From Pseudomonadota bacterium (GTDB taxonomy: Bacteria > Pseudomonadota > Alphaproteobacteria > SMXQ01), in assembly GCA_022562375.1 (NCBI GenBank), contig JADFPK010000120.1:1-5981 (forward strand): a DNA stretch of 5,981 nucleotides, written 5' to 3'. Below the pieces are notes generated by a model that worked only from the letters and a program-made list of their open reading frames with translations, searched no databases and was not told the DNA's origin. Below, piece by piece: positions 1-5,981 of the stretch; the first letter of the stretch is position 1, and the number at the start of each line of letters is the position of its first letter. The translations under genes were made by a program, and so were the position numbers.

Positions 1-11
1 AACTTCACAAA

Positions 12-47
12 CCGCCCGGCCGCCGCGACCTGGGCGGCGGGGTCCTC
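12..47. repeat. Near-perfect 36-bp direct repeat of 1798-1833
   Basis: Positions 12-47 match 1798-1833 with one mismatch (42 versus 1828); the first 30 bases are identical. Both copies code for the AAQVAAAGR segment of the two paralogous virion proteins, in the same frame and orientation. The repeat is part of the longer diverged homology 1-232 / 1786-2018 and is far better conserved at DNA level than the middle of that homology. It is a possible substrate for homologous recombination that would delete the plus-strand cargo gene. Confidence 0.85.
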
Positions 48-184
48 CGAGTACATGCCGCCGATCAGCGAATCGCGAAGCACGGCGGACAACATGCCGG
101 TCGCAGCGACGTAATCGTCCTCGACCGACGCCCGGTCCTCGGGCGGATGTTCGGCGATGTCCTCGGCAAGGTTTGCGAACACGG

Positions 185-232
185 CATCGACCGCCGCCCG
201 GTCGGCCGCATCGTCGGCGTCCGGTTTCTCGC
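185..232. repeat. 48-bp direct repeat of 1971-2018, ending at the breakpoint
   Basis: Positions 185-232 match 1971-2018 with three mismatches in 48. In both copies the stretch codes for the EKPDA...RAAVD segment. Similarity ends sharply after 232: the full gene goes on into its KGKLANG coding sequence, whereas the left copy enters unrelated DNA and a TGA within about 10 bases. The abrupt end marks the rearrangement junction between phage-derived sequence and the cargo-gene region. Confidence 0.8.
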
Positions 233-263
233 TGGCGGTGCATCAGGTCATCGGAGGCTGAGT

Positions 264-293
264 TTGACCGGCGGGAAACCGGAGTCCTATACT
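264..293 (+). promoter_or_regulatory. Sigma70-type promoter for the secreted-protein gene
   Basis: TTGACC (264-269) and TATACT (288-293) each match the sigma70 -35 and -10 consensus at five of six positions and are separated by 18 bases. A start of transcription near 300 would leave a leader of about 20 bases before the GAGGG ribosome binding site at 308-312 and the ATG at 321. The promoter lies just outside the truncated paralogue. It gives the gene at 321-803 expression independent of the phage operon, which runs the other way. Confidence 0.7.
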
Positions 294-320
294 CTCTACC
301 TTCCGTTGAGGGATTTGGCG

Positions 321-803
321 ATGAAAATGATGTCACGGATGAAACTACACCTGTCCGGTTTACTCCTTTGCATTTCCTTGGCCGTCGGTGCGCCAGCTGT
401 CATGGCTGGCGCTGAGCCGTTTCGACCGATCGACGCCAAGGCGTTGATCAAACCGTGCTGGGATCTATCGGAAGAAAAACGGTCGAGCGGCGTCACGGCG
501 ACGATGCGACAAGGCACGTTGGATACCGTCCTTTGTCTCGAGAAGGTCATACTGGATCAAGTCGAAATTCTCTTTCCCGATGGTGAAAATCTTTCGCGCG
601 CCCAAGCCGAAGAAAAGCTCGAACGTTTGCGTTTTGCCGTCGGCAGTTTTTACTGGTCGCTTTACAATGGACACGTAGGCTGTAAAGGTTTCTGTGGAAC
701 CATGTGGCAGGTATTACATTTGGCCAAAAACGCGGACTTCCTTGAGCAAATGATCCGGGACATAGCGGACCAACGAAACCGGTACGAGATCGAAGGGCCT
801 TAA
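321..803 (+). CDS. Small secreted cysteine-containing protein, likely moron/cargo gene
   Basis: The ATG at 321 is preceded by GAGGG at 308-312 (8-base spacing) and the promoter at 264-293. It begins a 160-aa protein with a clear Sec signal peptide: basic residues up to about residue 10, a hydrophobic core at about 11-25, and candidate signal peptidase I sites after VMA (29) or AGA (31). LLLC at 14-17 is a poor lipobox, so a lipoprotein is unlikely. The open frame extends up to 147, but those extra residues would bury the signal peptide; Met7 (339) is an alternative start. The mature part, predicted periplasmic or exported, is about 130 residues and mostly helical, with four cysteines: one near its start (CWDL), one in VLCLEK, and two in GCKGFCGTM. 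These could form disulfides. From memory the CGTM plus C-terminal QRN-Y pattern recalls uncharacterised alphaproteobacterial proteins; no function is recognised. GC is low (25-26 of 60 in the stretches at 541-600 and 661-720) against over 60% in the phage genes, pointing to a different origin. It converges on the phage operon with 82 bases between (804-885), where no convincing terminator hairpin is seen. Confidence 0.82.
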   Translation: MKMMSRMKLHLSGLLLCISLAVGAPAVMAGAEPFRPIDAKALIKPCWDLSEEKRSSGVTATMRQGTLDTVLCLEKVILDQVEILFPDGENLSRAQAEEKLERLRFAVGSFYWSLYNGHVGCKGFCGTMWQVLHLAKNADFLEQMIRDIADQRNRYEIEGP

Positions 804-885
804 CGCCGGTTAGCGTCGGGTTACGCGGGAATTAAAGCTGTCACCCTCCAAGTGATCTAACCTAGTAGCTCGCTTCCGCTGTCAC

Positions 886-2961
886 TCACGGCTTTTTCGG
901 TGCGATCCGGAAGCTCTCGGCGCGCGGCACCCAGCCTCCTTTGTATGTTTTATATTTCGGCTGACGTTTCATGAAATCGAGGCGCCTGTTGACCATCTTG
1001 TTGTTGACGTCGACGATCTTTCCTTCCCGGACCGCGCGGTCAATCGCCGCACGGGTCTTCGGTCCGACGTTCCCGTCGTAAACCGGATTGCCTTTTTTAT
1101 CCGATATCCTGAGGTCGGTGCCAAGAACATCATCCAGCGATTGTTGCAAGAGTTGCCCGGCGTTCGTAATGCCGTGGAGAATGCCGCTGTCGAAGAGCTG
1201 TTCCGGAAGTTGCGGCGTTTGTTTCTTCATGCCGGGAATGTCCCAGACCTTCTTGATTCTTAACTTGTCGAAAAACTCTTCGCGGAAAACCCTTTCGATC
1301 TGCTGTGGCGTAAGGTTCTTTGTGGACTTGGGCAGTTTGAGATCCGGCCGCTTTTTCCTGAGATCATTAAGCAACTCTTGTGAGAAGCCTTCTTTGGTCG
1401 GACCGCCGGGATCCTTAGGATCACTAACGAATTTGCCTTCGCGGGGCCTCAGGTTTCCACGGTACTTCTTGAACAAAGCATCAGCGTCTTTATCCCTTGG
1501 CGCTTTCACATTGCCGGCACTGCCACGTGTGGCGCCCGCTTTCCCCGCGGCGTGGGATACCTGTGTCCCGTTACCACCGGTCCCCGGTTGTTGCGGGGTT
1601 CCCGGCGGGGCGATCGGTTCCACTTCTCTATCTTTCCCTTCCTCTCCTTGCTGCGCCATCTTCTCCGCCGCCAGTTGCACGATGCGGGCGGGGGGGAGGC
1701 CGGGATAGGCGTAGGCGTTGATCGTCCGGGCGCGGGTGAGGGTGTCGGCGGGGAGATTGATGATGAGCACGGGATCGGAATTATCGAACGCAACCAGCCG
1801 CCCGGCCGCCGCGACCTGGGCGGCGGGATCCTCGGACAACATGCCGGCGGTTAGCGAATCGCTAAGGGCGGCGGGCAACATGCCGGTCCGGCGGACGAAA
1901 CGGGTTTCGATGATCGCCATCTCTTCCGGCGGCCGCCCGACGTTGGCCTCGACAAGGCCCTCGAACAGCTCATCGACCGCCGCCCGCTCGGCCGGATCGC
2001 CGGCGTCCGGTTTCTCGCCGTTCGCAAGCTTGCCCTTGACCCGCGCCGCGCCGTCGGCCCTTCTCGCGTTGTCTTCGTCGAAGCGCTTGAGCTCGGCGAG
2101 GAAGTCGGCGTACTCCGCGGCACTGATCGTCCCCTCCTCGAACTCGGAGTCGAGCTCCTCGGCGAACGCCTGGCCGGTCGCCACCCGGAAGTCGAGATCG
2201 GCCACCGCCACCGTGTTTGCCTTATCCGCCTGTCTGGCCGCGTTCCTCGCGTTGTCCTTCTCGCTCCTGGCGATGCGGCCCAACAGCAGCCTCGCCGGCC
2301 TGGGCCCAAGCTCGGCGTCGAAGCCGCCCTTCTGGATCAGCGCCCGCGCCTCACCGGTCTTGCCGCGTTCGATCAGCCCGTCGATGGCGGCGCTGACGGC
2401 GCCGGCGCGAAGCCTGGTCCGTTGCTCCGCGGCCTCATCGCTGGCGAACACGCCGTCGAATTGGCCTATCAAATCATCTACGGTCGAAAGCAGGCCGGAA
2501 AGCCCCTTGGCGTCGCGCTTCGCCGCCGCCGCGATCTCCGCCCCCGCCGCCTCGATGTTGGCGAAGGCTTTTTGGTGACGCTCGAGGTTGAGGCGGTGGA
2601 GTGCTGCGGTCTGGAACCGCTCCATGGCGCCTTCCATGTTGGCCCTGGTAACATCGATGGCGTCCTGGCTGATGAGCCGGCCCTGGGGGCCCCTGGGGAT
2701 ATCGGAGAGATGCTCGCTCCGCATCTCGGACGCGACCTTCATCAAATCCTTCACGAACATCGGATCGGCGGAATCGCCATCCCGTTTGGCGCGCCCGAAC
2801 TCCGCCGCCATGTCGCGCTGGAAGGCGAGCGTCCTCTCGGTGATGAAGTTGGCGTCGTCGAGCTTCTGCTGGCGCGCCATCGCCCTCTTCGCCGCCTCGC
2901 TCAACTCCGGCGGTTCGGCGAACTCGAAGCGTCCATCGTCGTCGAATGGAATTTTGGGCAT
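886..2961 (-). CDS. Virion-associated peptidoglycan hydrolase: long helical internal virion protein with C-terminal GH108 lysozyme domain
   Basis: This is a 691-aa protein in three parts. Residues 1 to about 435 are charged and alanine-rich, predicted helical and without hydrophobic segments, as in phage internal virion/ejection proteins. Residues about 438-490 form a Pro/Gly/Gln/Thr-rich linker. The C-terminus resembles the GH108 family: Glu508 in REGKF is the expected catalytic acid (family pattern EGGY), followed by DPKDPGGPTKEGF (514-526) and LTPQQIERVFREEFFD, matching the usual LT..E...IYR..YWD. A peptidoglycan-binding-type tail follows, with DGNVGPKTRAAID and NRRLDFMKRQPKY then GGWVPR. 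The predicted action is cleavage of the glycan backbone of the cell wall, most likely as a virion component opening the wall during DNA ejection, by analogy with T7 gp16 (whose lytic domain is N-terminal). A holin-partnered endolysin is less likely given the long N-terminal part and the location among virion genes. The start is supported by GAGGAGGG at 2967-2974. GC drops sharply over the lytic domain (27-29 of 60 at 1081-1140, 1261-1320 and 1321-1380, versus 39-43 of 60 at 2041-2160), suggesting the domain was acquired separately. A broken paralogue lies at 1-242. Confidence 0.85.
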   Translation of the reverse strand: MPKIPFDDDGRFEFAEPPELSEAAKRAMARQQKLDDANFITERTLAFQRDMAAEFGRAKRDGDSADPMFVKDLMKVASEMRSEHLSDIPRGPQGRLISQDAIDVTRANMEGAMERFQTAALHRLNLERHQKAFANIEAAGAEIAAAAKRDAKGLSGLLSTVDDLIGQFDGVFASDEAAEQRTRLRAGAVSAAIDGLIERGKTGEARALIQKGGFDAELGPRPARLLLGRIARSEKDNARNAARQADKANTVAVADLDFRVATGQAFAEELDSEFEEGTISAAEYADFLAELKRFDEDNARRADGAARVKGKLANGEKPDAGDPAERAAVDELFEGLVEANVGRPPEEMAIIETRFVRRTGMLPAALSDSLTAGMLSEDPAAQVAAAGRLVAFDNSDPVLIINLPADTLTRARTINAYAYPGLPPARIVQLAAEKMAQQGEEGKDREVEPIAPPGTPQQPGTGGNGTQVSHAAGKAGATRGSAGNVKAPRDKDADALFKKYRGNLRPREGKFVSDPKDPGGPTKEGFSQELLNDLRKKRPDLKLPKSTKNLTPQQIERVFREEFFDKLRIKKVWDIPGMKKQTPQLPEQLFDSGILHGITNAGQLLQQSLDDVLGTDLRISDKKGNPVYDGNVGPKTRAAIDRAVREGKIVDVNNKMVNRRLDFMKRQPKYKTYKGGWVPRAESFRIAPKKP

Positions 2962-4629: not shown

Positions 4630-5070
4630 TCACCCCGTCTCCGGCTTGATCTTGCTTGCGGCCGTGAGCAATGTCTTGCCGGCACCGAAAAAGCTCGACG
4701 TGCGACTCGCCTGGCCACCGAACCGGGCGGCCTGGGCTCGGGCCAGTTCACGCGATTCTGAAAGTTTTCCACCAAAGAGGACCGTGAGAGCGTCGAATTC
4801 GCCCTCCGCCGCCGTCTCCTCTTGCACCAGTAGCGGCGTGCCCTCGAGCCGCACCCCCGCCTTGGAGAAAGAGGCGCGCTGGGCGCCAAGGATCCGCACA
4901 TTCTCACGGCGCTTTTCGACTTCCTCCACCTCGGCGCGCTCGCGCGCGATGCGGGCGTTCTGCTCGGCGACGCGGGCCTGGAATTCGCCCGCGCGCTCGG
5001 CCGCGATTCCCTGCGAAATAGTGCCGAGCGCCCCAAGGACGAGCCCGGCGATCTCAAAAGGTGATCCCAT
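4630..5070 (-). CDS. Internal virion protein, T7 gp14-like
   Basis: A 146-aa protein. Residues 6-24 form a hydrophobic/glycine helix (EIAGLVLGALGTISQGIAA) that could be membrane-active. Residues 25-60 are a charged amphipathic helix (EFQARVAEQNARIARERAE). Next come GAQRASFSKAGVRLEGTPL (62-80), then more helix and an Ala-rich end. A small hydrophobic/Ala-Gly N-terminus, an Asn-Ala-rich helix and a Q/R-A...AGV-x-x-x-GTPL turn are the recurrent features of podovirus internal virion proteins of the T7 gp14 type. These enter the cell envelope with DNA and help build the ejection channel. The ATG at 5070 lies 17 bases inside the end of the gp13-like gene, and the purine-rich GAGAGTGAGAA just before it is a modest ribosome binding site. 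Its position straight after a gp13-like protein repeats the T7 order 13-14. The gp14 link is pattern-based; a generic virion protein remains possible. Confidence 0.72.
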   Translation of the reverse strand: MGSPFEIAGLVLGALGTISQGIAAERAGEFQARVAEQNARIARERAEVEEVEKRRENVRILGAQRASFSKAGVRLEGTPLLVQEETAAEGEFDALTVLFGGKLSESRELARAQAARFGGQASRTSSFFGAGKTLLTAASKIKPETG

Positions 5071-5506
5071 TTCTCACTCTCGCATAAAGCCAATAATTTT
5101 CACCATTAGGGCCGTAGCCCACCATCTCGCCTTCGCAACGGAAGCCGAGCCGTTCGGCCCATCTTCGAGCCACTTCGAGATCCGTGCGGACGCCGATTTG
5201 AAGCCGGCGCAGCCGAAGACCACGTTCGACCAGTTCCATCCCCCGCCTGACATGCTTGTGAAGAAAAACCGGATGACGCCGCATCTCATCGGAAGCGAGC
5301 AGCCAGGCGCTTGCCACGCCTTTCGCCACCAATGTAACGCCGGAGGATGCAAGGACCCGGTCCTCATGAACGATCGAGAACGCCGGATCGGAATCTCGAT
5401 GATGTGACGTGAGATCCCCGACACCGGCACTCGCGAGCGCTTTGACCTCGATCGCACCGGGCTCGATCAGGTGAAGATGGGCGGGCTCGAAGGGAACGAT
5501 TCGCAT
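5054..5506 (-). CDS. GNAT-fold phage protein, T7 gp13-like
   Basis: This is a 150-aa protein from the ATG at 5506 (MRIVPFEPAHLHLI). The open frame continues upstream to 5632, but those 42 residues are Arg/Pro-rich antisense-like sequence inside the methyltransferase gene, so the shorter start is preferred although no clear Shine-Dalgarno is present. Features of a GNAT acyltransferase: a first strand/helix with an EPAHL motif, a central SGVTLVAKGVASAWLL segment (55-70), a helix with HKHVRRGMELVERG (83-96), and ARRWAERLGFRCEGEM (113-128), the usual C-terminal signature. It ends GYGPNGENYWLYARV, common in phage versions. The acetyl-CoA pyrophosphate loop (Q/R-x-x-G-x-A/G) is not clearly present around 83-90, so catalysis is doubtful. 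T7 gp13, of related fold, is needed for virion morphogenesis rather than known to acetylate anything. It overlaps the methyltransferase by 40 bases and the gp14-like gene by 17. Confidence 0.78.
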   Translation of the reverse strand: MRIVPFEPAHLHLIEPGAIEVKALASAGVGDLTSHHRDSDPAFSIVHEDRVLASSGVTLVAKGVASAWLLASDEMRRHPVFLHKHVRRGMELVERGLRLRRLQIGVRTDLEVARRWAERLGFRCEGEMVGYGPNGENYWLYARVRNGITF

Positions 5507-5981
5507 GTAAAGATGGCCGACACGCCATCGGCGAGGCAGTCGACGCCGGCCCAATGTTCTCCGAGTTGGCGATGCCACCATGCCGCGGGGCGCACCGTGA
5601 GGTGGAGGGATTGGCCGATCAGCCCGCCGCAACCGTCGGGCACCGTGGAAATCTGGAAGAACGCGCCCCTGGTGGTGCGCTGGGCGATGCTTTCGATAAC
5701 GGTGTCCACCTTGTGTGGCGGGATATGCTCCATCACGTCAGCGCAAAAGGCGATGTCGGCGGGGCCGATATCCGGGGGCAAGTCCCAGAGACAGGCGATG
5801 ACGAAATCAACATCCACGTCCGGGTCGAGACTGTTGGGCGCGATATCGATGGCGGTGACCGCCGCCGCCACCCGGGCGAGGTGTTGCGCCGCCCGGCCCG
5901 AACCGCAGCCATAGTCGATAACATAATCGCAAGGACCGATACCGAGCGCCTCGATTGCCATCCCGACCAGCGCTTCGCCGG
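5467..5981 (-). CDS. Class I SAM-dependent methyltransferase (probably 5'-partial)
   Basis: Numbering from the ATG at 5961, motif I is VIDYGCGSG (14-22), the SAM-binding glycine loop; Asp39 in AIDIAP fits the ribose-binding acidic residue. PADIAFCADVMEHIPP (67-82) is motif IV with the D-V-x-E-H-I-P signature of small-molecule/Methyltransf_11-like enzymes. The protein ends at 5467, overlapping the gp13-like gene by 40 bases. Upstream of 5961 the frame stays open to the window edge and encodes GEALVG, so the true start may lie outside; the Rossmann fold would lack only a short lead-in helix if 5961 is used. The substrate cannot be told. No DNA methylase NPPY/DPPY motif is seen, so a restriction-evasion DNA methyltransferase is not supported. 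Similar genes occur in phage structural clusters and may modify a virion or host component; that is inference. Confidence 0.82.
   Translation of the reverse strand, partial: GEALVGMAIEALGIGPCDYVIDYGCGSGRAAQHLARVAAAVTAIDIAPNSLDPDVDVDFVIACLWDLPPDIGPADIAFCADVMEHIPPHKVDTVIESIAQRTTRGAFFQISTVPDGCGGLIGQSLHLTVRPAAWWHRQLGEHWAGVDCLADGVSAIFTCESFPSSPPIFT

Follow-up and report, generated by a model that had tools for sequence, protein, structure and literature searches.

A probable orphan module of a phage ejection-type protein with exchangeable C-termini, and a linked candidate gene for an exported lysozyme inhibitor

Related systems and how the locus compares

Polymorphic toxin loci of the contact-dependent inhibition (CDI) and Rhs type combine a constant 5' part with exchangeable C-termini and a small neighbouring gene that is tied to the C-terminus. 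According to Poole et al. (2011; PMC3150448), fragments located downstream contain part of the constant region once more, end in different C-termini, and in most cases have no translation start signals. The present report deals with a stretch of 5,981 nucleotides of a Pseudomonadota bacterium (contig JADFPK010000120.1, hereafter the window), in which the gene of a 691-amino acid presumed phage ejection protein (the carrier; 886-2961, minus strand), with a GH108 muramidase domain in its variable C-terminus, a small gene on the opposite strand (the A2 gene), and a fragment of a second carrier copy (1-242, minus strand) lie side by side. Most probably, a phage ejection protein of the polymorphic kind has left an orphan C-terminal module here, of which the fragment is the 5' part, with a linked gene for a presumed exported GH108 inhibitor. 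The arrangement recurs in other bacterial genomes and, as far as the sequences tell, resembles known toxin-and-immunity gene sets.

The carrier family shares with the CDI/Rhs loci a constant part with exchangeable C-termini, a neighbouring gene that is specific for the C-terminus, and downstream fragments repeating a piece of the constant part. Such orphans are present in the family at large (proteins P0017, P0018, and P0042; arrays in genomes G027 and G181), while the window itself shows the 5' part of one alone. Different from CDI/Rhs, the carrier is a phage ejection-type protein and two of its common C-termini are lysozyme-like; the neighbour of the GH108 end is convergent, on the other strand, and has its own promoter-like block, whereas in CDI loci each orphan has its cdiI gene behind it (PMC3150448). 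In the carrier family, toxicity of the C-termini and their neutralization are presumed.

Among phage systems, the MuF toxins of temperate phages come close, being phage-encoded carriers with variable C-terminal toxin domains and a small open reading frame (ORF) as presumed immunity gene; in Jamet et al. (2017; PMC5576092), 86% of MuF proteins are assigned to siphoviruses, and the words "orphan" and "lysozyme" are absent from the main text. The 691-amino acid protein has no MuF domain, however, a Pfam scan up to E = 0.1 giving GH108 and PG_binding_3 alone. Polyvalent proteins, which are delivered with phage DNA, likewise bear PBECR, RelA/SpoT, and lysozyme domains (Iyer et al. 2017; PMC5512222), but they are multidomain proteins, whereas one carrier takes one of several C-termini, together with a paired neighbouring gene.

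The constant part of the carrier may resemble ejectosome proteins of the T7 gp15 type: residues 22-440 are helical and gp15-like in a predicted model, itself of modest quality, and give structure matches to the PhiM1 and T7 ejectosomes. Lysozyme activity of gp15-like proteins is stated for K1E (gp35) and K1-5 in an ejectosome review, whose main text lacks the word "toxin" and which, in the portions covered, mentions neither orphan modules nor a linked inhibitor (PMC8954989). On the side of the presumed inhibitor, the A2 protein may work like T4 Spackle, a small exported helical cysteine protein that is phage-encoded, made early in lytic infection, and 75 amino acids long when mature, and that inhibits the T4 virion lysozyme gp5 in the periplasm (PMC7677548). 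The A2 gene differs in adjoining its presumed target and in having its own promoter-like site. Tai4, an all-helical periplasmic immunity protein of type VI secretion, would be a further functional parallel as an exported protein neutralizing a peptidoglycan enzyme, Tae4, that is delivered by neighbours (PMC3695027), although the target enzyme family (an amidase) and the mode of delivery differ from the GH108 case. In the literature covered, which included neither preprints nor most subscription papers, polymorphic toxins are described for MuF proteins and further phage proteins; an ejectosome-type carrier with orphan modules and convergent lysozyme inhibitors was not found there.

Exchangeable C-termini and the fragment at the left edge

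The 691-amino acid protein is one allele of a family in which the constant residues 1-440 are joined to exchangeable C-termini of at least five kinds. Among 5.8 billion proteins searched, 18 carrier relatives were found, and in a 13-sequence alignment the mean pairwise identity per 40-residue bin is 0.61-0.87 up to residue 440 and 0.16-0.28 beyond. By blastp clustering, 22 C-termini, near-duplicates included, fall into five classes, namely GH108 (6 members), a second lysozyme-like domain (7), a pre-toxin/nuclease group (3), an HExxH group (5), and a RelA/SpoT-like end (1); five proteins with a short or missing tail (P0011, P0043, P0015, P0045, and P0047) were excluded. The pre-toxin/nuclease group, provisionally so named, includes a PBECR1 domain. 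The HExxH group takes its name from a motif recognized by eye, to which P0017 adds a weak YgjP-like match (E = 0.0018), and the RelA/SpoT-like end of P0012 from a weak NCBIfam match (E = 0.013); a PDB sequence search with the C-termini of P0012, P0042, and P0019 gave no match. In the window, the exchangeable C-terminus includes the GH108 domain (residues 506-573; 1243-1446, minus strand; Pfam E = 1.6e-11, 45 bits against a cut-off of 21.2) with Glu508, which we take to be the catalytic glutamate, and a PG_binding_3 domain at residues 625-682 (Pfam). Residues 314-440 (1642-2022, minus strand) make up the shared core, which is repeated by orphan modules and is the likely segment of recombination. 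A second recurrent break point is found in the carriers P0015 and P0047, both of which break after LIGG, at about residue 373, to continue in unrelated tails; that of P0047, a truncated carrier, is of low complexity.

The fragment at 1-242 is a repeat of this core. Its minus-strand translation aligns without gaps to residues 315-390 of the 691-amino acid protein (46 of 76 identical, window 6-233, blastp E = 2e-25), and in a self-search of the window its DNA is 79% identical to the carrier gene over 222 nucleotides (12-232 against 1798-2018, E = 3e-47). It lacks the 5' part, is preceded by an in-frame TGA at 245-243, and stays open from 242 to the left edge, where it leaves the window. An earlier note, made from the sequence alone, had described a second, broken, and diverged copy in just these terms, and its count of 47 of 77 identical residues over 316-392 is borne out apart from minor shifts. 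At the DNA level, likeness to the carrier gene stops at 232, and a different conserved block starts at 245-246 and extends to the right.

It is this junction that gives the fragment the look of an orphan-module start, because three database proteins, P0017, P0018, and P0042, begin there and reach complete alternative C-termini. They stem from a core-only protein search returning 21 proteins and are known as proteins alone, with no genome context visible. All three open with the junction residues of the window (MT-x-CTA, then the core) and end in a C-terminus of the HExxH type (two) or the lysozyme-like type (one), while none of the 13 aligned carriers has MT-x-CTA before the core. The window fragment has the same junction, with a stop codon inside. 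A 9-nucleotide sequence at the end of the block, CGATGACCT, was also considered as a junction microhomology and was rejected; it equals carrier codons 161-164 in locus L001 (see below), but since it is absent from the main gene of the window and matches of at least 9 nucleotides to that gene arose by chance in 260 of 2000 junction shuffles, it supports nothing.

A scan of genome contigs yielded two relatives, L001 and L002. L001 (JADFIH010000156.1, a contig of a Proteobacteria metagenome-assembled genome) has the same order and orientation as the window, with a carrier (2-1474, plus strand) whose 5' end is cut by the contig, an opposite-strand gene (1557-2054, minus strand), and a second copy without 5' part. 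The latter spans about residues 160-412 and is followed by a stop, a sequence that by eye resembles a terminator, and a gene with tail-protein matches. Assemblers err at repeats, and the contigs L001, L021, L028, and L030 end inside arrays of this kind, so that two related phages might have been joined at a repeat by the assembly; as L001, assembled independently, has the same layout and is 89.9% identical to the window at the DNA level over window 245-2356, such a chimera is very improbable. L002 contains one carrier copy with another C-terminus, which is identical with that of P0008, one of the near-duplicates among the clustered C-termini.

In L002 (492-1502 and 4560-4990), the genes ahead of the carrier gene are metabolic genes of the host and do not form a phage structural module; an integrase gene is found 3.4 kilobases upstream, and identity with the window begins 12 nucleotides before the carrier start codon. 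The carrier may move by itself. At its end, the L002 contig has a pyrimidine-rich 19-nucleotide tandem repeat (8129-8191), and the end of L001 (6600-6673) is likewise rich in pyrimidines.

For the origin of the copy, the earlier note had suggested either recombination with a related phage or an old duplication followed by decay. The former has become likely from the sequence comparison, since the fragment is closest to L002 (82.0% DNA identity over 76 codons) and yet has the stretch LRDSLIGGM in common with the second copy of L001. As to decay, the in-frame stop and the private substitutions suggest that the window module is no longer under selection; in a comparison with four relatives over 76 codons, 10 of 12 private substitutions change the residue in the fragment, 8 of 15 in L002, and 5 of 10 in the other three together, numbers that are small and, for the ratio of non-synonymous to synonymous substitution rates, come from a stretch too short for a firm test. 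What tandem duplication followed by decay leaves out is the main point, the recurrence of the 5' truncation in P0017, P0018, and P0042.

These signs of decay would also fit a plain partial duplication, or what recombination with a related phage has left over of the resident allele, that is decaying and has no modular or reservoir role, and the second copy of L001, which ends without a C-terminal domain, would fit it, too. It is nevertheless a rather unlikely explanation, as three other proteins have this 5' junction, which is not of the carrier, ahead of alternative C-termini that are complete, and as modules with differing ends stand in tandem in G027 and G181. Besides, it overlaps with the favoured reading of the fragment as the start of an orphan module, because an orphan module can be decaying too. 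A useful product of the window orphan is not expected.

The A2 gene and its association with GH108 ends

The A2 gene (321-803, plus strand) lies between the two copies and seems to be part of the same unit as the module. It codes for a 160-amino acid protein with a signal peptide, as it appears by eye, that is predicted to be all-helical (AlphaFold model, predicted local distance difference test score 81). Beyond the window's own entry, 21 homologues were found, and Cys46, Cys72, Cys121, and Cys125 are invariant in 18 of 18 aligned sequences. Family searches gave no assignment, the best matches being at E = 0.16 in Pfam and, in PHROG, to PHROG 12597 of function not known (E = 0.008); matches in NCBIfam are far below the cut-off only, and the best PDB match by sequence is a glucosyltransferase (E = 0.046). 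An effector-immunity complex, whose identity as one of the Tae4/Tai4 type is presumed, not established, is among the best structural matches of the model, with a similarity that is within the chance range for helical bundles. The A2 protein is proposed here to be the cognate periplasmic inhibitor, or immunity protein, of the adjoining GH108 domain.

The orphan core and the A2 gene are joined by a conserved block (246-325, plus strand) with a promoter-like site (264-293, TTGACC-18-TATACT, 10/12; one of 2 sites in 1-1000 against 0.3 expected), an apparent ribosome-binding site (by eye), and the start codon. The block is 91% identical over 80 nucleotides to L002 8054-7975 and has a homologue in L001. 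As it precedes another gene in L002, block and genes combine differently among loci; that gene is interrupted, and its downstream piece is weakly OmpA-like (E = 2e-4, below the cut-off). The interrupted gene occupies L002 7551-8111 and contains an in-frame stop. At the convergent end of the A2 and carrier genes, a consensus scan indicates a weak terminator-like site (878-892, plus strand; 2 found against 1.2 expected).

A search for the A2 family covered two overlapping sets of 240 genomes each, the relatives of G027 and those of G002, and gave the same matches in both, in G123, in G140, and at two places in G027; of 10 genomes in the order to which G001 belongs, G001 alone has a member. Since A2 and GH108 co-occur too weakly at the genome level for use, adjacency was used instead. 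At one place in G027 (C31), a GH108 carrier with 38% identity to the window protein over 559 residues is followed, at a distance of 74 nucleotides, by the convergent A2 gene. At the other (C20), the A2 gene is located 40 nucleotides behind what remains of a GH108-type C-terminus. The array around it further comprises a core whose end is weakly SLT-like, a protein of the membrane type, and another orphan core, and it adjoins phage head and tail genes; a head-tail adaptor is found in G027 as well. In G123, the convergent A2 gene is 14 nucleotides from the sole GH108 match of the genome, whose carrier is cut in its N-terminal part by the contig end.

A survey of GH108 loci extends this association. 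PF05838 was detected in 39 of the 240 relatives of G002, and all 51 matches were inspected, three loci with five matches first for being long or multiple. Within limits chosen after the first loci had been seen (ORF of 80-300 amino acids, within 100 nucleotides, hydrophobicity 2.0), a convergent ORF with a hydrophobic N-terminus stands behind 6 of 7 GH108 ORFs of at least 300 amino acids and behind 3 of 43 shorter ones (Fisher p = 3e-5), one locus at a contig edge being left unscored. The only long ORF without such a gene is that of L039; the short ones with it are L028, which a contig end cuts, and a pair in G181 that adjoins genes of the carrier type, and L061 would become a fourth at a limit of 250 nucleotides. 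In a profile search (nominal 1000 sequences), distant A2 relatives were recognized among the convergent proteins of G129 (E = 1e-7), G175 (7e-5), and, once, G181 (0.0016), to which the other two of G181 connect by blastp. In G175, two tandem A2-like, apparently exported paralogues are convergent with a 388-amino acid GH108 protein (L073, 1650-2656).

Apart from exceptions in G140 and G143 (see below), the neighbour goes with the type of C-terminus. A2 accompanies GH108 in the window, L001, G027, and G123, and where L002, G129, and G181 have a different end, a different gene lies next to it. In G181, four consecutive modules have core stretches in common; their terminal domains are, in order, GH108, SLT-like, pesticin-like, and GH108, of which the second and third score below the Pfam cut-off. 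G129 has two carriers that are 63% identical over 392 residues and differ in their ends, the second one with a convergent RDD-type membrane protein. The G129 carrier with the convergent A2 relative has just the GH108 end in common with the window protein.

Such repeated convergence behind GH108 ends in several genomes, including this G129 carrier, would not be expected from an accidental insertion, which makes it improbable that A2 is a moron, that is, an independent opposite-strand gene inserted in or near a duplicated virion gene and rendering another service to the lysogen, with an accidental link to the lysozyme. Features expected of a moron are nonetheless there, namely the opposite strand, the promoter-like and weak terminator-like sites, and the presence of the same 80-nucleotide block before another gene in L002. 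The A2 member of G140, a genome without any GH108 match, would suit a moron, too, and at the same time weighs against A2 as the cognate inhibitor in an orphan-module locus. So does G143, where the convergent proteins paired with GH108 belong to another family and occur in tandem copies, and so does the possibility that the window fragment, like the second copy of L001, was a bare core without C-terminal domain. The G143 locus (L031, 3925-9634) looks like a poly-immunity array, with six paralogous, apparently exported proteins without A2 match that are convergent with two GH108 carriers (four and two).

Proposed mechanism and neighbouring genes

If the fragment is the start of an orphan module and A2 the inhibitor, the system would operate as follows. 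The virion would contain the constant part and, in the manner of T7 gp15, eject it into the periplasm, where the GH108 domain would cut peptidoglycan during DNA entry; nuclease and RelA/SpoT-like ends would be cytoplasmic toxins. The prophage would transcribe the A2 gene from its own promoter, and the exported product would inhibit that GH108, by which the prophage could block the enzyme of its own and of incoming particles of the same type. The lysogen would thus be shielded by a superinfection exclusion analogous to that of T4 Spackle against gp5. Since C-terminus and inhibitor adjoin each other beyond the core, recombination within this repeated segment could swap both together; a recombinational exchange has been proposed for polymorphic toxin cassettes (PMC3482391). 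Displaced or captured modules would remain downstream as orphans, as is described for CDI loci (PMC3150448).

More tentatively, with belief and doubt not far from balance but doubt the heavier, these loci could represent a new class of polymorphic effector-immunity systems on DNA-ejectosome proteins, in which muramidase, nuclease, protease-like, or alarmone-synthetase-like tails would each be matched by an exported or membrane inhibitor from the prophage (convergent in GH108 modules). Exclusion would act on the infection enzyme and keep the alleles diverse, and orphans would serve as a silent reservoir for switching by core recombination. Should the pairs be functional, the virion lysozymes that temperate phages carry would be incompatibility markers, not mere drills; a resident prophage would recognize an incoming particle by its muramidase type and block it, and a phage would escape through an exchange of tail domain and inhibitor together. 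This would offer a testable genetic basis for superinfection exclusion, a source of new small lysozyme inhibitors, and a rule for finding such pairs, namely to look behind long GH108 ORFs for convergent genes with a signal peptide. Polymorphic toxins would also gain ejectosome proteins as a further kind of carrier.

The window's own carrier family is rare and occurs in 4 of 385 genomes of the class to which G001 belongs; the carrier query matched 5 of 96 relatives of G001, three of them in the GH108 part alone. Scans of IMG/VR with the carrier, the carrier alignment, the A2 alignment, and the exact promoter-block pattern gave no match. Among isolated phages, the A2 protein had none either, and the 691-amino acid and P0042 queries matched by the GH108 end alone (13 records) and by the lysozyme-like end alone (7 records), respectively. 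A virion role of the carrier is suggested by its gene neighbourhood, with internal virion protein families upstream, among them a 146-amino acid protein (4630-5070, minus strand; PHROG 418, E = 9e-24). An ORF of 157 amino acids (5054-5527, minus strand) also matches internal virion protein families, and its start is overlapped by the 3' end of a methyltransferase gene (5467-5961; PF13649, E = 1.6e-10) at the right edge of the window.
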